A stretch of DNA of 64,000 nt. It comes from Kiritimatiellia bacterium. Lineage in GTDB: Bacteria > Verrucomicrobiota > Kiritimatiellia > CAIVKH01. The translations under genes were made by a program, and so were the position numbers. The stretch covers positions 107,627-171,626 of the forward strand of contig JANWZO010000003.1 in NCBI GenBank assembly GCA_025054615.1, given 5' to 3'. Numbering within the stretch: position 1 is the first letter of the stretch; the number at the start of each line of letters is the position of its first letter. Positions 6,215 to 54,438 of the stretch are shown here, in pieces. The notes below the pieces were generated by a model, which saw only the letters and a list, made by a program, of their open reading frames with translations, had not been told where the DNA came from and searched no databases.

Positions 6215-9200
6215 ATGGCGCGATCACGTTGGCGGGTATTTGGGTTCGTTGCGGCGCTCCTGCCGCTAGTTTGGGGCATCGCACGCGCTGAAGTGATTCT
6301 CCAATATTTCGAGACTGAATGGGATGAGATTTACCGGCGCATTCCTGAAATAGCCGAGATCGGCTATGAGGGCCTGTGGACGCCGCCTCCGGCAAAATCG
6401 CCGCATGCGGGTGGGCAATTTGCGGGAGGAGGTAACGTTGGCTACAGCCATTTTGATAAGTTCGACCTTGGAGATGTGCCCCAACGCGGATCCCGCGCCA
6501 CTCGATACGGTACACGGGGATCGTTGCGCAACATGGTGGACAATGCGCGCCGATCTCACATTCGAATCTATCCGGACATCGTGATGAACCACAACGGCAA
6601 CGGGCCGGACTTTCGCACGTATCCAGGTACCGTTCCGAACGACTATCACGGATGGTGGGACGCAAGCCAGCCCGGCGGATTCAAACGCGCGCCACGAATG
6701 TTCATCTGGGACCATGGCAATGGCTATGGTGGCACTCTTCATCAAGAGCTGGTCAGCCTGATCGACTTTCAGGTCGAGGCGGACAATCGATTTAGCACGG
6801 GTTCGCCCAACTACTCGTTCCCGCCCGCGCCCTTCATCCGCCATCCCGGCCAACCGGACAAATATCCCTATGGACCGCCGACCGCGGAAAACACGATTCA
6901 GTACCTTTGCCGCTGGGTCGCCTGGCTGGGCAATGCGATGGATTACGACGGCGTGCGGCTCGATGCGCCGAAGCACATGGTGGCAAACTTTTTCGGATTG
7001 CCCGGGCAGGTTGGCACGTTCCTGCACGAGATCCAGTACAACTTTGACTATCGTCGCGGCTACACGGATTACACAAACGCGGCAACGAGCTATGAGCAGC
7101 TTTACCTCAACTATCAGGAACGCGATGACGCCTTGATTTTCTCGGAATTCTTCATCGGCAGCCAGGGGGAGATCGATTACTGGCGTAATTTCGGCAACAA
7201 ATTCCGCTACCTCGATTTCCCTCGAAAAGCCCAAATAATCGGACCGGCGTTCAACGGCGGGAATCTGGCGGCGCTGGACAATATCACCTCCGGCTTTTCA
7301 CCCGCCGAAGGCGTCATGTTCGCGCACAGCCATGATGAGAATCCCCCGAACAAGCTCGACCTGGCGTACGCCTACATTCTGACGCGCATTGGCTTGCCCG
7401 TCGTGTTCTTCACCGGAAACAACCTTGCTGGCAGCGAGGTCAATACGAAGACATGGATGAAACTCGGCTACGGTTCCGCGTTGGGCGACTACAACTACAA
7501 CGCCGTGCCAAACATGATTTGGGTGAACAAGCAGTTTGCGCGCGCCTCGGAGTGGACGCGATGGTCGGAAGGCGACTTCTTCGTGTTCGAGCGCTTTCAG
7601 GACATGAACAACAACGGGAACCCCAACGCCGGCGAGGGGCTGCTCCTTGTCGGCCTCAACGACTCCGGCTCGTCGCAGACCCGCAACAATGTGCAGACAT
7701 CATTCGACCCCGGAACCGTCCTCAAAAATTATTCGATTTTCTCCGCGCCGAATTTGACCGTGGACAGCAACGGCCGCGTCAACCTGACGATCCCCGCCGG
7801 GAACAGTGGGCAAGGGTGGGTGTTTTATGCTCCGCGAGTTCCAGAGGCTGACGGCGACCCGCTCAGGTTCGTGCAGGGCGGCACCAACGCGCCGACCATG
7901 GCGTGGGTAGTGCCCGGAGGCCGGCTCGCGACGAACAAATTGCGCCAGATTGTGCGACTCACCGCCGATACGGTGGACATCAACGTCCACTACCAGAACC
8001 CGCCGGATGGCGCGGTCGATTCGGTGATGATCAAATGGGGGCTTGGTCAGAAGATGCACCCGACGAATTTCTTCTCCACGGGTGTTGACAACGTCAGCGG
8101 CAAATTTCAGTCGGCCAATCCGATCACGGTCGGCGGGGCAGGCGGCACGGGGCATTTCCGCCTTACGGCGACCCTCACGAACATGGCTGAGGGTCTGCAC
8201 CTAGTGCAGGGCCGCGCGTTTGTAGGGCGTCCGCCGAGCAAGCCGGCCCTTTTCAATACATTCCGCGAGGTGGTTTATGTCGACCGACGCGGGCCTGATC
8301 TGTCGATCCTTTGGCCGCCGGAAGCCGGTACGATTGTCGGCTCGACGGTTGTCACCGTGACCAACGAGGACAAAACCGCATACTATGTGGAGTTTAGCGT
8401 AAACGGCGGCGCGTGGACGCCCTGCGATGAAATTCAGAAGGGCGAATGGCGATTTGTGCTGCCCCCGTTGTCGGTCGGTACGCATACGGTCACCGTTCGC
8501 GCGCTGGAGGCGGATTGGGGCCAGCCGCGAAATATCATCAACACGAGCACCCTGGTGAGGACGTTCAATGTGGCGGCGGGGACGCCTCCAACGATTACCT
8601 TCGCCGGAATCAATCGCGGGACGGGATCCAACATCGAGTTGCCGTTTTTCCGCACGATAGTGAGCGCGCCGGGCGCGTCGTCGCTGCGCCTCTTCTGGGA
8701 CGGCAAGGAACTTCCGCTGGTGGGGAGCGTGAACGGCGCGACCAACGTCTTTGACGGGCGCTGGATTGTCGGAGGCGTGACCCAGCGGCTCTGGGGAGCC
8801 TTTGTGAACGGCCCGCAGTTCTTCGAGGCGGTTGCCGTCAGCGGATCGGTTACCAGCCGAACCGCGGTGCGGCGCGTGTTCAATCTCTATGGCGTCAATG
8901 CGATCGACTCTGACGGAGACGGCCTGCCGGATGAGGTCGAAATGCCCAATTTCTTCAGCGGCACCGCGCCGGGCCCGAATGTCCCGTGGCCGGGCGATAC
9001 GTCATCGCAGGGCAATCAGGACATGATCCCCAATTACGGTGAGACCTGGACTCGACTCAACCCGATGAATGCCGAAACGTTCTATAACGGCATTTGGGAT
9101 GACAATCTCGATTCGGATGGCGACGGTGTGCCGAACGGGTGCGAGGTCCGGCAGGGCTATCTCCTGCACACGAATGCCTGGCACTTCAACATTTACAACG

Positions 9201-12200
9201 GCGCAAGCAAGCCATCGACCTGTGTCGAGACCAATGCGGGCGGTGGAGGAGGCTTCATTCCGCCCCAGGTGACGTGGACACCCAATACTGTGAACCAGTG
9301 CGCCGGCAGCACGCTCACGATCACGTATACACCGAACGAGGGCCCGTTGAGCAACAGTTCGCCGATCCAGATTTACATCGGCTACAATGGCTTCACTGGA
9401 GTCACGACAAACACGATGAACAATCTCGGCGGCGGCCAGTGGCAGTTCACATACGCGGTTCCCGGCGTCGCGACCCAGATCAATTTCGTCTTCCGCAACT
9501 CCGCGGGTACCATCTGGGACAACAACGGCGGGGCAAACTGGAATGTCAACGTCGGACCCTGCGTGGTCATCACCAACTTCTTCGTGATGGACGGGCTGTT
9601 CGACAGCGCCCAATACGAAATCGCCGACAACGGCATGCGAATCTGGGCCGCGGTCAAGAGCAACAACCTCTACGTGGCAACCTGGTCGGCGAACGGAAGC
9701 GAGACGAGCGGCGATCACTTCCTGTACGTGACCGACCAATTCAGCGGTCCAGAACCCTCTCCCTGGGCGAAGGCCGGCGTCATCTTCTTCAATAAGGCGA
9801 GCAAGCCATATTTGGTTGCCGAGTCGCGCGTCACCAACGGCTATCACGCGTTCAACAATGCCGGGGCCGGCGGACGCAGCGCGATGGGGCCGGCGGGTCA
9901 GGCGCTAGAGGGCGAGCTGAACCTGGTCGAGGTCTTCGGCCATGTGCCAAAGAAAATCTATATCGCGGCGGTCGCGATGGATGATAACGACGGCGGCGGC
10001 ACGTTGAGCCAGTGCCCGCCCCGCTTCGACAACAATCCCAACGATCTCGAAATCACGGATTTCCTGCCGGTGAGCATCGAGAGCATTCGCGATGAAAACC
10101 TGGACGGCGTGTTCGACGGCGGCAGGCCCTACATGGTCTCGGTGGTCAACGGGAACACGAATAACGCGAATTACAACATTCGGCGGTTCTTCCTCGATGA
10201 GCTCGCGGGCGACGTCGAGTACATCACCTTCCACCTTTGGATCAACGGTCCGTCGGGCACGAATGTGATCTCGGAGGTCGAGCTGTTCTCGAATTTGAAC
10301 CGGCGCGATTTCGCGGTGCTTCCGGGCGACGAGGATTGGGAGACGATAACGCCGGCCAGCGCGACAACGTACTATCGCGCCTATCCGATGAGCGGAAGCG
10401 GAAACGGCCCCTATAGCGTGACGTTGCCGGTCAACAAGTGCGGGGCCTATCGCGTTACCGCGCGCTACAAGATCAATGGCAAGCGCTACTACTACACCGA
10501 CAACGCGCTGCGTCGGGACCTCGCCGTTGTCGTGACGCCCAAGAAAGCGCTGAACCTCACGATGTATGAGCTAAACCCGATGACCGCGGAAGCCACGAGC
10601 GATCAATTCGCCGGGCGCAGCACCTTCCGCGATATCTACCAGCAGGATGTCGGCGACGGGCTCGACCGCCTGAGCACGAACTTCTTCAAGAGTTTGGGCG
10701 TCAACATGCTGTGGTTGCAGCCGATTCACCCGATCGGCTTCGACAACCGCGAGATCGACCCGAGCACGGGCCTCGACTATGACCCGGGCAGCCCCTACGC
10801 TGTGCGCAACTACTGGAAGGTCAACCCCGTTCTCGGCGATCCCTACGTGCCCGACGGCAGCCAGGCCATGCTCGAGTTCCAGGAATTCGTGCAGGCGATG
10901 GACCAGAACGGGATTGGGGTGATGCTCGACGGGACCTTCAACCACTCGGCCTGGGACTGCGAAATCGGCGAAGTGGCCGTCGAAATGTTCCCTAGTTGGG
11001 CGACGAATGCAACCGACCTGATTCGCGTCGCGCGGCCCCAGTGGTATTCGAAGGCAGGCGATTACGGCACGCACGCGACCTACTTCCAGTCTGCGAACAA
11101 CACCGACATCGCCGTCGCGCCGGACCGCACGGATTTCGGCAAGTGGACCGATGTAGCCGACTTCTTCTTCGGCGCCTACGACGCGCTCGTGCAGAAGCAG
11201 ACCGACGACTGGCGCGACCGGTACCTCTTCCAGGAGGATGATTTCTACGGATTCACGACGAATGCCACTCGCGAATTGTGGCTCTACTTCGCGCACTACC
11301 CCATCTACTGGCTAGAAAAATCCGGGCATCCGATCGGCACGCCAAAGAACCAGTCCTACAAGGGCATCGACGGCCTTCGCTGCGACTTCGCACAGGGCCT
11401 GCCGAGCGTCTTCTGGGAGTACACCATCAACAAAACACGAAGCGTGAAGTGGGATTTCCTCTTCATGGCGGAGTCCCTCGACGGTTTCCGCGAAGTCAAC
11501 GGCAACAAACGGAACGGCCTGAGTTTCCGCTCGGCGCGCCACTTCGACATCATGAACGAAAACATGGTGTTCTACTGGCGCGACCAATACTTCGACTACA
11601 AACCGTGGGGCGGAACGCCCTACAGCGGCCAGCAGCCGTTCACCTTCCCAACCTGGCAGGCGTTCGACAACCGCCGCAACGCGTATGACGTTGTGCCGAT
11701 CCTGCTCAATCTGACCGGACACGATGAGCTGCTGCCCCACGATGACCAGTGGCGGCTCATCTACGCCTATGCGATCCTGACTGCTTGGGACGGCGTGCCG
11801 ATGCTATTCGCCGGCCAGGAAATGGGCTTGCAGAACGCCGCGCACATCTACACCAACCGCGGCATCAATCCGCTGAACAATTACGCCCGATATGAGGTGA
11901 ACTTCGGCAAGGGCATTCCGCACTTCAAGCGCTATAACCACCTGACAAATGTGTGGAACAACGCCGGCTGGAAAACCAACATGTTCGAGACCTATAAGCG
12001 GCTGAACAGCGCCCGTCTGAAATCGCCTGCTCTGCGCAGCCAGAACAACTACATGCTGTCCGGAACCAATGGATGGAATCCGAATATCTTCGCCGTCGTG
12101 AAATACGAAAAGGCGGGCGTGCCGGCGGCCTCTCAAGACGTGGTGATCGTGGCGGTCAATAACAACTATCAAGGGTCGACAAATCGGTTCGACACCTACA

Positions 12201-12823
12201 ACGTCAATGTGAATGTTTCACCGGGCGTGAACTGGTTCGGGATCCAGCCCCACAGGGTGTACAACGTCATTGACCTTGCGTCGCCCTCGACGAATTACCT
12301 GTGGCCCTCACCTGGATTCGCGGGATCCAATATTCTGAACAATGGTTTCACGGTGATTCTCAACGGGAATCCGTTCCTGGGCCAGCAGGTGCAGTATCTC
12401 AAGCTGATCGACACCGGCGCCACCTATGCTGATACGGATGGCGACGGAATCGCAGATCACAGCGATCCGGACGTGGACGGCGACGGACTGCCCAACTGGT
12501 GGGAGGCGCTCTACGGGAATCTCAATCCGAACGACGACTCGGACAATGACGGCCACACCAACTACGAGGAATATCTCGCGGGCACTGTCCCGCTGAACCC
12601 GAACTCCGTTTTGGAAATCTCTGAAATCCAGCGCGGCGGGTCCCTCGACCACATCACATGGGATGCGGTGGCCGGCAACAATTACCGAGTGCACCGGGCC
12701 CCATCGATCACCGGTCATTGGCAGCAAATCTATTTCGGCACGGCTCTGACTTCGAATCCGACGGTGAGCGCCGTTTCGCCGCCAGGGACCAACGTCTTCT
12801 ACCGAATCGAACTCAAGCCCTAG
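6215..12823 (+). CDS. secreted double-catalytic-domain GH13 alpha-amylase-family protein
   Basis: This 2202-residue exported protein has two complete GH13 (alpha-amylase family) domains. ATG 6215 follows AGGAG by 8 nt and opens a signal peptide (about 25 residues, ending GIARA). GH13 domain 1 (about 25-520) has DIVMNH (121-126), nucleophile D250 in GVRLDAP, acid E311 and HD 373-374. Then come Ig-like segments, a DSDGDG calcium repeat (about 897), another at about 965, a starch-binding-like domain (about 1019-1118) and a beta-rich segment. GH13 domain 2 (about 1450-2050) has DGTFNH (1572-1577), nucleophile D1724 in GLRCDFAQG, acid E1753 and HD 1836-1837. The C-terminus has TSP3-like repeats (from about 2073) and a final beta module often seen in Verrucomicrobiota. 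It likely hydrolyses alpha-glucans (starch, glycogen, pullulan) outside the cell. Linkage specificity is unknown. Confidence 0.92.
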   Translation: MARSRWRVFGFVAALLPLVWGIARAEVILQYFETEWDEIYRRIPEIAEIGYEGLWTPPPAKSPHAGGQFAGGGNVGYSHFDKFDLGDVPQRGSRATRYGTRGSLRNMVDNARRSHIRIYPDIVMNHNGNGPDFRTYPGTVPNDYHGWWDASQPGGFKRAPRMFIWDHGNGYGGTLHQELVSLIDFQVEADNRFSTGSPNYSFPPAPFIRHPGQPDKYPYGPPTAENTIQYLCRWVAWLGNAMDYDGVRLDAPKHMVANFFGLPGQVGTFLHEIQYNFDYRRGYTDYTNAATSYEQLYLNYQERDDALIFSEFFIGSQGEIDYWRNFGNKFRYLDFPRKAQIIGPAFNGGNLAALDNITSGFSPAEGVMFAHSHDENPPNKLDLAYAYILTRIGLPVVFFTGNNLAGSEVNTKTWMKLGYGSALGDYNYNAVPNMIWVNKQFARASEWTRWSEGDFFVFERFQDMNNNGNPNAGEGLLLVGLNDSGSSQTRNNVQTSFDPGTVLKNYSIFSAPNLTVDSNGRVNLTIPAGNSGQGWVFYAPRVPEADGDPLRFVQGGTNAPTMAWVVPGGRLATNKLRQIVRLTADTVDINVHYQNPPDGAVDSVMIKWGLGQKMHPTNFFSTGVDNVSGKFQSANPITVGGAGGTGHFRLTATLTNMAEGLHLVQGRAFVGRPPSKPALFNTFREVVYVDRRGPDLSILWPPEAGTIVGSTVVTVTNEDKTAYYVEFSVNGGAWTPCDEIQKGEWRFVLPPLSVGTHTVTVRALEADWGQPRNIINTSTLVRTFNVAAGTPPTITFAGINRGTGSNIELPFFRTIVSAPGASSLRLFWDGKELPLVGSVNGATNVFDGRWIVGGVTQRLWGAFVNGPQFFEAVAVSGSVTSRTAVRRVFNLYGVNAIDSDGDGLPDEVEMPNFFSGTAPGPNVPWPGDTSSQGNQDMIPNYGETWTRLNPMNAETFYNGIWDDNLDSDGDGVPNGCEVRQGYLLHTNAWHFNIYNGASKPSTCVETNAGGGGGFIPPQVTWTPNTVNQCAGSTLTITYTPNEGPLSNSSPIQIYIGYNGFTGVTTNTMNNLGGGQWQFTYAVPGVATQINFVFRNSAGTIWDNNGGANWNVNVGPCVVITNFFVMDGLFDSAQYEIADNGMRIWAAVKSNNLYVATWSANGSETSGDHFLYVTDQFSGPEPSPWAKAGVIFFNKASKPYLVAESRVTNGYHAFNNAGAGGRSAMGPAGQALEGELNLVEVFGHVPKKIYIAAVAMDDNDGGGTLSQCPPRFDNNPNDLEITDFLPVSIESIRDENLDGVFDGGRPYMVSVVNGNTNNANYNIRRFFLDELAGDVEYITFHLWINGPSGTNVISEVELFSNLNRRDFAVLPGDEDWETITPASATTYYRAYPMSGSGNGPYSVTLPVNKCGAYRVTARYKINGKRYYYTDNALRRDLAVVVTPKKALNLTMYELNPMTAEATSDQFAGRSTFRDIYQQDVGDGLDRLSTNFFKSLGVNMLWLQPIHPIGFDNREIDPSTGLDYDPGSPYAVRNYWKVNPVLGDPYVPDGSQAMLEFQEFVQAMDQNGIGVMLDGTFNHSAWDCEIGEVAVEMFPSWATNATDLIRVARPQWYSKAGDYGTHATYFQSANNTDIAVAPDRTDFGKWTDVADFFFGAYDALVQKQTDDWRDRYLFQEDDFYGFTTNATRELWLYFAHYPIYWLEKSGHPIGTPKNQSYKGIDGLRCDFAQGLPSVFWEYTINKTRSVKWDFLFMAESLDGFREVNGNKRNGLSFRSARHFDIMNENMVFYWRDQYFDYKPWGGTPYSGQQPFTFPTWQAFDNRRNAYDVVPILLNLTGHDELLPHDDQWRLIYAYAILTAWDGVPMLFAGQEMGLQNAAHIYTNRGINPLNNYARYEVNFGKGIPHFKRYNHLTNVWNNAGWKTNMFETYKRLNSARLKSPALRSQNNYMLSGTNGWNPNIFAVVKYEKAGVPAASQDVVIVAVNNNYQGSTNRFDTYNVNVNVSPGVNWFGIQPHRVYNVIDLASPSTNYLWPSPGFAGSNILNNGFTVILNGNPFLGQQVQYLKLIDTGATYADTDGDGIADHSDPDVDGDGLPNWWEALYGNLNPNDDSDNDGHTNYEEYLAGTVPLNPNSVLEISEIQRGGSLDHITWDAVAGNNYRVHRAPSITGHWQQIYFGTALTSNPTVSAVSPPGTNVFYRIELKP

Positions 12824-17864: not shown

Positions 17865-19385
17865 TTATACAAGCTTTTCCAAAAATCGCGAGGCGCGATC
17901 CCGATGCTCACGCTGTTTTTCGACGCCGAGCCGGTCCCACGTGCGCGCCATCATGGCCAGCCGCGGATGTCCGGCAAAAAAGTCGCGGTGGTCGCCGATA
18001 AAGGCCCAGAACAGCGAATCCCAGATCTCGCACCACGGGCCGGGACGGAAATCACTCATCCGCCGAATGTAGGCGGACCCAGAGATGTAGGGCTTCGTCG
18101 CGAACAGGCCGCCGTCGGCAAAAAGGCCCATCCCGTACACATTCGGCACCATGACCCAGTCATAGGCGTCGATAAACATCTCCATGAACCAGCGGTAGAC
18201 GTCATCCGGTCGAATCCGGCACAACAGCATGGCGTTCGATAGGATCATGAGCCGCTCAATGTGATGGCACCACGCCCGATTCAGGACGCGCCGGATTACC
18301 GCGTCGACAGGGGCGAGGCCCGTGGACCCTTCATACCACGCTCGAGAAAGGGGCCGCGTGTGGTTCCAGAAATTGGAAGTGCGAATGCGAGTGCCCTCCA
18401 TCTCGTACAGCACGCGGATGAATTCGCGCCAACCCACGATTTGGCGAATGAAGCCTTCGAGCGAATTGAGAGGGATCGCGCGACCGGCGGCAAACTCCAA
18501 CGTGCGGTCGATCACCTCCCGCGGCGTCAGCAGCCCGATGTTCAGCGCAGGAGTCAACACCGAGTGGAACAGCACGGAGCGCCGCGAAGAGATCGCATCC
18601 TCATAGTCGCCGAAGTGCGCCAACCGGCTCTCGAGGAATGCCTCCAGGCCTGCCAACGCATCTCGCCGGGTGACGGGAAACCAGAATCCCTCCGTCGAAC
18701 CCGGGTTTCCAGGGAACTCGCGCTCGATGCCTGCAGCCACGGCAAGAATGGCCGAATTCGCACGTGGTGGCGGATCCGGCGGGAGCGCCAAGGTCGCCGG
18801 CAGCGGCTTGCGGTTTTCCGCATCGAAGCTCCACCGGCCTCCGACCGGTCGGCCGTCCTCCACCAGCAGGCCGAGCCGCAGACGCTGCGCCACATAGAAA
18901 TCGGCCATCAGATAGCGTCTCTTTCGCGCCATGACTTCCGCAGCCCACCCGACGTCCGTAAGAAACATCGGAGTTGGATGGATATGAAGCGCGACGCCGT
19001 TCCTCTGCGCCGATTCTCGAAGCCGCTTGGCGAGCAGATAGTCCACCGGGTCGGCGAGGTGGACCTCTCGCACCCCGCGCTTCGCTAGCAGAGCCATCGT
19101 ATCCCTCGCGGTTCGCGACGGATCATACGACAGACATTCAACCTCGTGGCCCCGGCGTACCAGTTCCCGCGCATAGGCCGCCATGGACGCGCGGTGAAGC
19201 AGCAACTTTTGCTTGTGGAAGCGCGCCGGCGCGAAGCGGTCGCCAAAAAACAGCGAATCCTCAACTAGAACCACACGGCGACCGCTTTTCAGCGCCGGAT
19301 GGGTATTGAACAACTGGTGCGGAAAAATCAGCGCAATCTCGGACACATGAACAGTTCGCAGAGCCAAGTCGCGCATTACGCGCAT
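17865..19385 (-). CDS. photolyase/cryptochrome-like protein (PF04244 type) lacking Fe-S cysteines
   Basis: This 506-residue protein resembles the prokaryotic (6-4) photolyase/cryptochrome group (DPRP family, e.g. Agrobacterium PhrB), which bind FAD and a second chromophore. Shared features are the N-terminal IFPHQLF, the segment WCHHIERLMILSNAMLL (372-388) and PNVYGMGLFADGG...ATKPYISG (414-436). PhrB-like proteins hold a 4Fe-4S cluster with four cysteines. Here the C-terminal cysteine-rich insert is replaced by a short MSDFRPGPWCEIWDSLFW (443-460), and the early ligand cysteine before HHIxRLM is also absent, so no cluster is expected. Repair activity versus photoreception is undecided. The start is MRV at 19385; M4 is an alternative. 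Confidence 0.85.
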   Translation of the reverse strand: MRVMRDLALRTVHVSEIALIFPHQLFNTHPALKSGRRVVLVEDSLFFGDRFAPARFHKQKLLLHRASMAAYARELVRRGHEVECLSYDPSRTARDTMALLAKRGVREVHLADPVDYLLAKRLRESAQRNGVALHIHPTPMFLTDVGWAAEVMARKRRYLMADFYVAQRLRLGLLVEDGRPVGGRWSFDAENRKPLPATLALPPDPPPRANSAILAVAAGIEREFPGNPGSTEGFWFPVTRRDALAGLEAFLESRLAHFGDYEDAISSRRSVLFHSVLTPALNIGLLTPREVIDRTLEFAAGRAIPLNSLEGFIRQIVGWREFIRVLYEMEGTRIRTSNFWNHTRPLSRAWYEGSTGLAPVDAVIRRVLNRAWCHHIERLMILSNAMLLCRIRPDDVYRWFMEMFIDAYDWVMVPNVYGMGLFADGGLFATKPYISGSAYIRRMSDFRPGPWCEIWDSLFWAFIGDHRDFFAGHPRLAMMARTWDRLGVEKQREHRDRASRFLEKLV

Positions 19386-19426: not shown

Positions 19427-19720
19427 ATGAACCCGATCATCGTACATGTCCACGTCCACGTGAAACCGGAAGGCATCGAGGCGTTCAAGGCCGCGACGCT
19501 TGCCAACGTGCTCGCAAGCCGAAAGGAACCCGGGGTTGCGCGTTTTGACGCCTACCAGCAGGCCGACGACCCGACGCGGTTCCTGCTCATCGAGGAATAC
19601 AAGACCCCGGATGCGCCCGCCGCGCACAAGGCGACGCCGCACTACGCCGCCTGGCGAGATGCTGTCGCTCCGCTCATGGCGGAGGAGCGGCGCAGTGTGA
19701 AATACATTCCGCTGGCATGA
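19427..19720 (+). CDS. antibiotic biosynthesis monooxygenase (YgiN-like) domain protein
   Basis: This 97-residue single-domain protein of the ABM dimeric alpha/beta barrel family resembles YgiN quinol monooxygenases: [21 protein letters not shown]..., [26 protein letters not shown], then H-(x)-TPHYAAW. Members oxidise quinols or similar small aromatics without a cofactor, but many are uncharacterised. A TAGAAT -10 (19415-19420) lies 6 nt before the ATG with no Shine-Dalgarno, so the mRNA may be leaderless. The stop overlaps the Fe-ADH start as ATGA, so the two form one operon. Confidence 0.85.
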
Positions 19721-20853
19721 GACCGTTCGAATTCGCAACCGCCACGCGGATCGTCTTCGGACAGGGAACCGCGCGCGGACTTGCGGACATCATCGGAAGC
19801 CTCGGAGGCCGCCCTTTCCTGGTCACCGGCGCTGCGAGGCGCCATGCGGAACTCATTCGCGCCGCAGCAGTATTCCCGGTCGCCGGCGAGCCGACATTTG
19901 ATACCGTGCGGGCGGGCGTTGCCGCGGCGCGGGATGCGGGGGCGGATGTAGTCGTGTCCATCGGGGGCGGCAGCGCGATCGATGCCGGCAAAGCCATCGC
20001 CATGCTCCTGACCAACGAGGGCGACCCGCTGGACTACGCCGAGGTGATCGGCAAAGGACAAGCCGTTTCCCGCCCCGCCGCGCCGTTCATCGCCGTTCCC
20101 ACAACGGCCGGGACCGGATCGGAGGCGACGCGGAACGCGGTCCTCCTCTCGCCTCGCCATGGCGTGAAGGTAAGCCTCCGAAGCCCCCTGATGCTGCCGC
20201 GCGTCGCATTAGTGGACCCCGAGCTGGCTGTCGGCGCGCCTCCGCGCATCACCGCCGCATGCGGGATGGACGCGCTGGCACAGCTTATCGAGCCTTTTCT
20301 GTCCAGCCGTGCGACGCCGCTCACGGATGCGTTGTGCCGCGACGGCCTCCCGCGCATCGCCCGGTCCCTTCCCCGAGTGATCGAGAAGGGCGACGATTTG
20401 GACGCCCGCGCGGACATGGCGCTTGCCGCGCTCTACAGTGGGATGGCTCTGGCCAACGCCGGCCTGGGCGCTGTGCACGGACTGGCCTCTCCCATCGGCG
20501 GGGGATTTGGAGCCCCGCACGGCGAGGTTTGCGCGGCGTTGCTGCCCGGCGTGTTCGAGGCGAATTTTTTACATGCCATGGAACGGCCTCAGGAATGTTT
20601 TACAAAGCAGGGAAAATTTGAGGAGGTCGCCCGGCTGCTTACCGGCAAGCCCGACGCGCGGCCGGTCGACGCGGTAGAATGGCTTCGCGAGATGAACAGG
20701 CGGCTTGGCATTCCGCGCCTTTCCATCTACGGCATCCGCCCCGAAGACGCCTCCGGCCTCGCCGCTCGGGCCCTGGAAACCAGCAGCATGAAAGGCAATC
20801 CGGTCCCGTTGAGAGCTGACGAGCTGGAGCGAATCGTCATCGGCGCGCTTTGA
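19717..20853 (+). CDS. iron-containing alcohol dehydrogenase family protein
   Basis: This 378-residue type III (metal-dependent) dehydrogenase has the NAD-binding motif [11 protein letters not shown] (from 83) and metal ligands D185, H254 and H268. The second usual histidine ligand is glutamine, Q189, in [12 protein letters not shown] (normally DALTHxxE); a Q-type subfamily exists, so activity is likely kept. The substrate is unknown; candidates are small alcohols/aldehydes or maleylacetate-like acids. It is coupled (ATGA) to the monooxygenase gene, hinting at aromatic or quinone metabolism. A 49-bp dispersed repeat (20569-20617) lies within the frame and encodes residues 285-301 without disrupting it. 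Confidence 0.88.
20569..20617 (+). repeat. 49-bp two-box dispersed repeat, copy 1 (inside Fe-ADH gene)
   Basis: The first box TTACATGCCATGGAA is followed, at a 31-bp period, by TTTTACAAAGCAGGGAAAA. An ungapped alignment to copy 3 (54390) matches 34 of 49 positions by hand count. It is read in frame and adds a segment rich in M, Q, C and K to the Fe-ADH protein. Confidence 0.65.

Positions 20854-27973: not shown

Positions 27974-27977
<4 letters not shown>
27042..27977 (-). CDS. cation diffusion facilitator family transporter
   Basis: This 311-residue inner-membrane transporter of the CDF family exports divalent metals (Zn, Fe, Mn or Co) against protons. About six membrane helices are visible. 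The metal-site motifs are SDAAESVVHN in helix 2 and HVLTDSWTS in helix 5, followed by a cytoplasmic alpha-beta domain ending in a His-rich stretch (THLEPAHDHARVH). The helix-2 motif (D with later N) is compatible with several metals. Its start overlaps the mutS stop (ATGA). Confidence 0.9.
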
Positions 27978-30475
<2,498 letters not shown>

Positions 30476-30496: not shown

Positions 30497-30568
30497 GGTT
30501 TTTCCATGGCCTGTAAATTACAGAGCATGGAAGCCGCGGACAAAATTTTTACAAGCGATGGAAAAACC
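30497..30568 (+). repeat. 49-bp two-box repeat, copy 2, with an added inverted box
   Basis: The 49-bp core is 30518-30566: box TTACAGAGCATGGAA (then GCCGC) and a second box TTTTACAAGCGATGGAAA 31 bp on. Just before it an inverted box, TTTTTCCATGGCCTGTAAA, makes a long stem with the second box (about 19 of 21 pairs, 30497-30517 against 30546-30568). It fills the gap between the start of mutS and the stop of the upstream minus-strand gene. Confidence 0.75.
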
Positions 30569-30572
30569 GGGG

Positions 30573-31256
30573 TCAGGGCGTCTCCGGGCCGACCGTGAGG
30601 CGCGTGCACATTTCCATCAGGGCGGGTCGAAGGGTGTCGAACGCATTGCGCGGGGCGCTGGCGGAGATGTGCATGTGCCACGGGCCGGCGATGAAGTCGT
30701 ACGCCTCGACGGTGAAGGTGCGAAGGGGGACCACCCGGCGAAAGGCGGGGCGGCCAAGGAATTCGGTCTCTTCAAGGTTGGTTCGGATGCGCGCGCGGGC
30801 CTCGTTGGCGAGGATCGTCGCGCGCACCTCTTCGAGCGTGCCAGTTCCGATGGGCCGGGTTGAGACGCAGACCTCCATGCGGTGCGGGCCGCGCAAGGTC
30901 ACGTCGTAATCCCCCTCGTTCTGATAGGGGTAGGCGGCCCACGTGGGCGGCAGAGGCAGCGAAAAACGGCCCGCGAAGTCGACGTAACGGTTGGTCGCCG
31001 TCGCGATCTCCACGACGGCGTCGGATACGAGCGTGGACGATCCTTTGGGATCGAGCGCGCGCTCCGCACGGAGGCGAAGCGAGACGAGGTCGGCTGTCAA
31101 CCCGATCATCGCGAGGCCGGCAATTGCCATGAATGCGAGTCGGATCCAGGGCAGTCGGACCCGGCGGCGGGTGCGGCGCGGCGCCGGCGGGTGAACACGC
31201 CGCATGTCACGCGGGATGCGCACAAGGCGGGGTTTTGGGGTTGACGCGCTGTCCAT
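30573..31256 (-). CDS. hypothetical membrane-anchored protein
   Basis: This 227-residue protein has a basic N-terminus (about 38 residues rich in R and P), one membrane helix (about 39-60, [19 protein letters not shown]) and a periplasmic domain of about 165 residues, possibly beta-rich, related to no family I recognise. ATG 31256 is the only good start; it faces the rplU promoter. Its stop is followed immediately by the dispersed repeat and then mutS. Confidence 0.65.
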
Positions 31257-31270
31257 CTCTCTCGTAAAAG
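31241..31270 (+). promoter_or_regulatory. sigma-70-type promoter of rplU-rpmA
   Basis: TTGACG (31241-31246) and TAAAAG (31265-31270) are 18 bp apart. The start would fall near 31277, giving a short leader that contains the AGGG used for rplU. It overlaps the start of the divergent membrane protein gene. Confidence 0.6.
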
Positions 31271-31295
31271 TTTGCACTTTGTTCAGGGTATGTCC

Positions 31296-31613
31296 ATGGA
31301 TGCATATGCAGTCATTGAAACCGGCGGCAAGCAATATCGCGTGAAAGCGGGCGACGTGTTGGACGTCGAAAAGCTGGAGGCCGCGCCAGGTGAGAAGGTC
31401 ACGATCGACCGCGTTCTCGCTTTGAATACCGGCGCGGGGCTGTCGGTCGGGCGGCCTTTGGTCGCCGGGGCGTCGGTGGTCGCAACCGTGGTGGACCAGC
31501 ACCGCGGTGAGAAAGTTTACAATTTCAAAAAGAAACGCCGAAAAGGATATCATCGGAAGGTCGGGCATCGCCAAAGCCTGACCCGGCTGAAGGTAGAGTC
31601 GATCTCGAGCTGA
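31296..31613 (+). CDS. rplU: large ribosomal subunit protein bL21
   Basis: This 105-residue 23S rRNA-binding protein starts [20 protein letters not shown], the standard N-terminus, and has the basic [17 protein letters not shown] loop near the C-terminus. ATG 31296 has AGGG about 7 nt upstream; ATG 31290 would add two residues but leaves no spacing. rpmA follows by 13 bp, the near-universal L21-L27 order. Confidence 0.96.
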
Positions 31614-31626
31614 AGGGAGGCGGGTT

Positions 31627-31881
31627 ATGGCGCATAAAAAAGGCCAGGGATCCACGCGCAATGGGCGCGACAGTGTCAGCAAGCGGCGCGGCCTAAAGGC
31701 GTTCGGCGGCGAGTTTGTGACCGCCGGGAGCATTATCGTCCGCCAAGTGGGAACGAAATATATTCCCGGGATGAACGTGGGGATGGGCCGCGATTTTACT
31801 CTGTTTGCGCTGCGGGATGGGACGGTCGAGTTTGACCGCGGCGGGCGGCGGGTGAACGTCCGGGCGGCCGCATCGGCCTGA
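31627..31881 (+). CDS. rpmA: large ribosomal subunit protein bL27
   Basis: This 84-residue protein sits near the peptidyl-transferase centre. The N-terminus [20 protein letters not shown] is typical and has no N-terminal extension of the kind cleaved in Firmicutes. Strong ribosome binding site AAGGGAGG is just upstream. It is followed by a strong terminator (31907) before obg. Confidence 0.96.
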
Positions 31882-54370: not shown

Positions 54371-54438
54371 GGTTTACATCGTGTGGAAATTACAGACCAT
54401 GGAAGCCGCAAAAAAATTTTTTACAGGGCATGGAAATT
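54371..54438 (+). repeat. 49-bp two-box repeat, copy 3, between argB and argD
   Basis: The 49-bp core is 54390-54438: TTACAGACCATGGAA (then GCCGC) and, 31 bp on, TTTTACAGGGCATGGAAA. A third, more divergent box TTTACATCGTGTGGAAA precedes it at 54373. It aligns ungapped to copy 2 at 39 of 49 positions by hand count. It occupies the intergenic gap within an arg operon. Confidence 0.75.

Follow-up and report, generated by a model that had tools for sequence, protein, structure and literature searches.

Helically phased pairs of a 15-bp near-palindromic box in genomes of one bacterial class

A 15-bp near-palindromic box, set in pairs and longer arrays with links of 31-32 bp, was dispersed through the host genome (G000) and through many genomes of its class. 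The anatomy, spacing and spread of the boxes, and the constraint on them, were read directly from the genomes. From these we infer a binding protein, its cooperativity and its task: the boxes may be cooperative sites for a putative dimeric DNA-binding protein, used chromosome-wide and partly spread by copying, a reading that we regard as evenly balanced between right and wrong. Detailed statistics come from sampled stretches, namely 1.23 Mb of G000, 337 kb of G006 (where array-bearing loci were chosen) and 71-220 kb of the others, and most genomes were incomplete assemblies.

Anatomy and phasing of the boxes

In the window (the whole 64,000-nucleotide stretch analysed), the first-pass annotation had described three copies of a 49-bp repeat, aligned without a gap, at 20569-20617, 30518-30566 and 54390-54438, and realignment confirmed them. 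Copies 2 and 3 shared 39 of 49 positions, exactly as counted by hand; copies 1 and 2 shared 31 and copies 1 and 3 shared 34, with 29 invariant columns overall. The 49-bp unit itself was wrongly drawn. When all matches were read together, the unit was a 15-bp odd near-palindrome, TTCCA-N5-TGGAA (left half-site variant TTACA), occurring in pairs and arrays, and copies 2 and 3 harbored a third box 16 bp upstream. The plus-strand label given to the copies also fell away: strand says little about a near-palindromic unit, and TTACA...TGGAA is a variant of TTCCA...TGGAA. A pair pattern in another palindrome register, TTTCCAN4TGGAAA, returned zero matches and was discarded as wrong.

Matches to TTTACANNNNATGGAA with up to 2 mismatches numbered 10 in the window (1.7 expected; 0 of 100 shuffles reached 10), and TTTTACANNNNNTGGAAA also gave 10 (0.39 expected). 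Since window shuffles fell short of the counts, and since TTTACANNNCATGGAA at one mismatch matched the host genome (2.48 Mb, 51 contigs) 225 times against 0 for the reversed pattern, the dispersed repeat is real, as the annotation had supposed. The fixed spacing it had described was kept by other copies in the host genome: in 457 kb, all nearest strict-box neighbours within 200 bp lay at 16 (6), 31 (15) or 32 bp (11).

The first pair of the window lay within the coding sequence of an iron-containing alcohol dehydrogenase (Fe-ADH) gene (19717-20853, plus strand; PF00465/PF25137). It comprised box TTACATGCCATGGAA (20569-20583, plus strand), with orthologous copies in G006 and G003, and, 31 bp further on, the degenerate box TTACAAAGCAGGGAA (20600-20614, plus strand). 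Upstream of the minus-strand mutS gene (27974-30475, five MutS domains), a three-box array opened with TTCCATGGCCTGTAA (30502-30516), followed after 16 bp by TTACAGAGCATGGAA (30518-30532) and after another 31 bp by TTACAAGCGATGGAA (30549-30563). A second three-box array occupied the gap between an amino-acid-kinase (argB-like) and a class-III aminotransferase (argD-like) gene, with TTACATCGTGTGGAA (54374-54388), TTACAGACCATGGAA 16 bp past it (54390-54404) and TTACAGGGCATGGAA a further 31 bp on (54421-54435). The intergenic setting proposed for two of the three copies thus stood for copies 2 and 3, copy 1 being intragenic. Single boxes at 18364 and 61367 had no partner at 31-33 bp and probably arose by chance. 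The window also encoded a very long open reading frame of about 2,200 aa (6215-12823, plus strand) and, upstream of mutS, a 386-aa protein (30573-31733) with no Pfam match at E 0.01; an Rfam search of the window returned only a tRNA.

All-pairs distances between boxes clustered at 31-33, 62-65, 93-94, 124-128 and 156 bp, with additional distances of 16 and 47-48 bp in G000 and G006; in the 457 kb of G000 the longer distances ran 47-48, 62-63, 93-94, 124-125 and 156 bp without drift. The preferred link was genome-specific (31 bp in G006; 32 bp in G040, G004 and G007), and could therefore be in part an inherited unit length. Boxes that seemed to stand alone in G001, G013 and G040 mostly proved to have a degenerate neighbour 31-33 bp away; allowing up to 2 mismatches, this applied to 16/18 in G040 and 11/14 in G001. 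A motif-free search for pairs of palindromes with the same arm yielded TTCCA at 31/32 bp in array-rich samples of the TTCCA dialect, and returned nothing in the 20-kb sample of G021. Loci held 2 to 8 boxes, the longest host array having 8; a six-box host array with constant 31-bp links was found between ruvA-like and ruvB-like genes (G000:C6:34184-36202, L233).

Pairs in G007 had 17-bp spacers that usually started with GT and often finished with AC, so that G007 has a dialect in its spacers as well as in its boxes; elsewhere the spacers displayed AT-rich edges. The middle links of longer G007 arrays, picked by eye, were T-rich then A-rich and measured 16 bp in 3/4. They point to the pair as the functional unit.

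Each box consists of two inverted 5-bp half-sites whose centres lie 10 bp, or one helical turn, apart. Helix-turn-helix dimers usually contact successive major grooves at such a separation. The protein would probably be a homodimer that binds the 15-bp box sequence-specifically. With boxes three helical turns apart, two dimers would sit on one DNA face and therefore could touch, allowing cooperative binding. The annotation had likewise placed the two boxes on the same side of the helix and suggested a dimeric or tandem binding protein, and a tandem site of this kind is the best-supported reading in view of the dyad symmetry, the multiples of about 31-32 bp and the drift of the spacers.

Orientation, genomic setting and spread among genomes

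Box cores were oriented direct/inverted in 16/15 pairs of G013, 9/13 of G040, 34/10 of G007 and 53/0 of G006, the remaining counts being 6/6 and 35/21. Because inverted orientation was not preferred, a hairpin between two boxes is disfavoured, and RNA hairpins of this kind were rejected. At the RNA level, two of the three window copies folded like shuffles and the mutS-proximal array folded well (z -4.4). The processing element that the annotation had offered as an alternative was accordingly poorly supported at the RNA level, given the orientation counts, the folding of those two copies and the lack of bias towards gene ends.

Arrays were mostly intergenic in G000 and G006, and between a third and a half of those in G013 and G040 were called in-gene, many close to gene starts; gene calls came from a simple codon-usage caller and are approximate, with uncertain start codons. 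Gaps holding arrays in G000 accounted for 23/329 co-directional, 5/76 convergent and 2/120 divergent ones (gap fractions in G006 are not comparable, its loci having been picked for having arrays). By these counts arrays had no preference for convergent gaps, and within co-directional gaps they did not lie significantly more often towards the stop of the upstream gene or the start of the downstream one. Promoter and intrinsic-terminator roles suit the arrays poorly; as regards terminators, convergent gaps were not preferred and two of the three window copies folded like shuffles. Neighbours were unrelated household genes, including mutS, argB/argD-like, ruvAB, pgi and sugar-nucleotide genes (non-Pfam names were read from sequence).

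Conventional regulator operators, or intrinsic terminators and RNA hairpins at gene ends, are an improbable explanation of the boxes. Cooperative palindromic boxes do look operator-like and the mutS-proximal array would suit a hairpin, but the neighbours lack a functional theme, the sites number in the hundreds with some in coding sequence, inverted orientation is not favoured, and the distribution among divergent, convergent and co-directional gaps also argues against it.

Of the 193 genomes sampled in the host's class, 89 had TCCAN5TGGA pairs at 31-32-bp spacing; the reversed control gave zero matches in all 193, and pair numbers ranged from 1 to 1,467 per array-bearing genome (highest in G001). 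Outside the class, one of about 190 sampled genomes of the phylum was positive, with two pairs. All sampled members of families f1, f5 and f26 were positive, and no sampled member of f2, f10, f18, f25, f31, f37 or f45 had TCCAN5TGGA pairs. Sister genomes could differ in number, with 1 pair in G116 and 92-98 in G077, G110 and G192, and g45 included both array-poor and array-rich members. Every lineage had its own box dialect, such as TTCCAATCATTGGAA in G001, TTCCAAGSCTTGGAA in G013 and G040, and the form already given for box 30518-30532, TTACAGAGCATGGAA, in G006. Some genomes initially scored negative bore other dialects (GTCCA-type in G002 and G011, the TTACA form in G006).

Phages or prophages of array-bearing hosts carry arrays too: two IMG/VR contigs harbored phased arrays (L274:2786-2915 and L285:650-695) within about 2 kb of terminase (large subunit) or portal genes. 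On the 1.4-Mb contig of G007, arrays were evenly distributed (KS p 0.51, gap CV 0.86) with a mean gap of 42 kb. That spacing, together with the pairing of nearly every box at a fixed phase, argues against DNA uptake sequences, that is, lineage-dialect motifs accumulating through transformation bias. Uptake would fit the dialects, the extreme conservation of the boxes amid freely varying flanks, and the sites by housekeeping genes and in permissive coding stretches, yet we consider this origin quite unlikely.

For the binding-site reading, the putative protein would work at the chromosome scale, like nucleoid or segregation factors, rather than on single genes, and box dialects would shift together with its specificity. 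A point against it is the copy number, which at about ten to 1,467 is wide for a core chromosome function. We tentatively put forward the more specific possibility of a class-specific chromosome-organising system, in which the putative protein would occupy tens to more than 1,000 phased two-box docking sites whose dialects co-evolve with it and which are kept in coding sequence and phage genomes.

Constraint, copying and candidate partners

In five genomes column information was concentrated in the boxes and almost absent from spacers and flanks, save for AT-rich edges; G006 was the exception, with a spacer common to copies. The constraint extended to coding sequence. In G040, seven sulfatase-like paralogues (label read from sequence) had half-sites 100% identical, spacers 52% and flanks 37-49%, and the invariant half-site positions, read directly from the sequences, included four-fold degenerate ones. 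Most members of the paralogue run (G040:C66:98598-118467; L141, L142) carried a box pair between the signal peptide and the catalytic domain, where it encoded FPRLGK...FQGLE-like linkers. In G006 and G003 the Fe-ADH pair of the window recurred at identical codon positions; the three spacers were unrelated, each genome used its own dialect, and the nearest Fe-ADH homologues without boxes were of equal length at the pair site, within one residue.

Twelve syntenic gaps had an array in G000 or G006, of which seven held it in G006 only and five in both, G006 being the genome sampled for arrays. At L078 and L089, G006 arrays were found in gaps whose counterpart genes overlap in G000. Given these differences between syntenic gaps and the conservation of the boxes, arrays come and go and boxes are kept once present.

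Duplication of entire box-spacer-box units may account for part of the new arrays, most clearly in G006. There, a unit of about 60 bp, nearly constant and carrying the spacer gttttaaaaaaagttt, was amplified, and the sharing of this spacer among copies indicates recent copying. Spacer relatedness exceeded the column-shuffled control in G006, G001 and G000 and was weak in G013 and G040. In the G001 sample, 37 of 39 boxes were identical on either strand, above what is usual for sites of transcription factors or nucleoid proteins, which could reflect recent copying or conversion. The orthologous array at G000 C2:94363 and G006 L062 kept its spacer and changed one box, which could be conversion.

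These signs of copying, like the genome-specific link length, weigh against the binding-site reading. Its strongest rival is a REP-like mobile palindromic repeat of a new kind, whose two-box unit would be spread by a transposase or by recombination and whose boxes would be conserved since the mobilising enzyme must recognise them. The recently amplified G006 unit, the G006 arrays where G000 genes overlap, the spacer relatedness in three genomes and the arrays close to phage terminase genes are all in line with it. We nevertheless hold it to be rather unlikely, as doublets are not inverted, boxes are alike in G040 and G013 although their spacers are nearly unrelated and weakly related, respectively, the Fe-ADH pair added no protein length and held its place over deep divergence, half-sites are kept at synonymous sites of coding paralogues, and some array-bearing genomes have no Y1-transposase match.

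When Y1 transposase, HTH_ParB and RdgC-like candidates were compared with array presence, the dimeric binder foreseen by the annotation was not found among them. A RAYT (Y1_Tnp) partner was rejected on assemblies 88-96% complete: array-bearing G021, G050 and G039 had no PF01797 match, and G024, G009 and G048 had many PF01797 genes and zero arrays. An extra ParB/Noc paralogue was likewise discarded, nearly all genomes having a single HTH_ParB match with or without arrays. The 8-box host array (G000:C4:64978-66333, L221) lay just past a gene weakly matching RdgC (PF04381, below cut-off), and an RdgC-like gene was present in 44 of 58 relatives; it was set aside as a partner, since genomes with arrays and genomes lacking them both had homologues, which elsewhere almost never adjoined an array. 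Near-solitary pairs in sparse genomes, considered as a clue to the binder, were mostly degenerate background.

Comparison with known systems

The arrays predict a major DNA-binding protein with strict two-dimer geometry, which could be a new chromosome factor or a mobile-element enzyme. Their dialect series offers a natural view of a protein and hundreds of sites changing specificity together.

The closest literature is that on REP, BIME and REPIN elements with RAYT transposases, and the boxes resemble REP/REPIN as short dispersed palindromes in hundreds of copies, often in doublets and lineage-specific (PMC3116915, PMC3733652). Both are mostly extragenic with some copies in genes. They differ in that the GTAG or CGTC tag is absent here, the five-genome consensus having only AT-rich edges, and in that the link is fixed at 31-32 bp rather than variable over 20-100 bp. 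Doublets are moreover direct or unbiased here and inverted in REP/REPIN, and RAYT is not required here.

Noc sites, SlmA sites and matS are short palindromes of 12-15 bp that are distributed across the chromosome, act in DNA and occur singly. The boxes share with them the short chromosome-wide palindrome acting as DNA, and differ by their helically phased pairing and by the lack of an extra Noc-like ParB in the genomes analysed. In Haemophilus and Neisseria, uptake sequences occur as short solitary motifs, roughly one per kb. Neisseria DUS and Haemophilus USS resemble the boxes in their dialects, strong conservation and free flanks, whereas the boxes are paired and phased and, in most genomes, much less dense.

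HIP1 of cyanobacteria, an 8-bp highly iterated palindrome, is a single site without fixed pairing. Like the boxes it is a lineage-restricted palindrome over-represented genome-wide; the fixed pairing belongs to the boxes only. CRISPR arrays likewise alternate short repeats with spacers that vary in sequence and not in length, but their repeats are at least 21 bp and sit in one or a few loci, compared with 15-bp repeats here, 2-8 per locus at many dispersed loci.

Neither the box sequences nor a strictly paired, helix-phased, dialect-bearing family turned up in the open-access literature searched. Dispersed palindromes are common, and what sets the present ones apart from the systems above is their strict helix-phased pairing, their dialects, their DNA-level conservation in coding genes and their occurrence across whole families.
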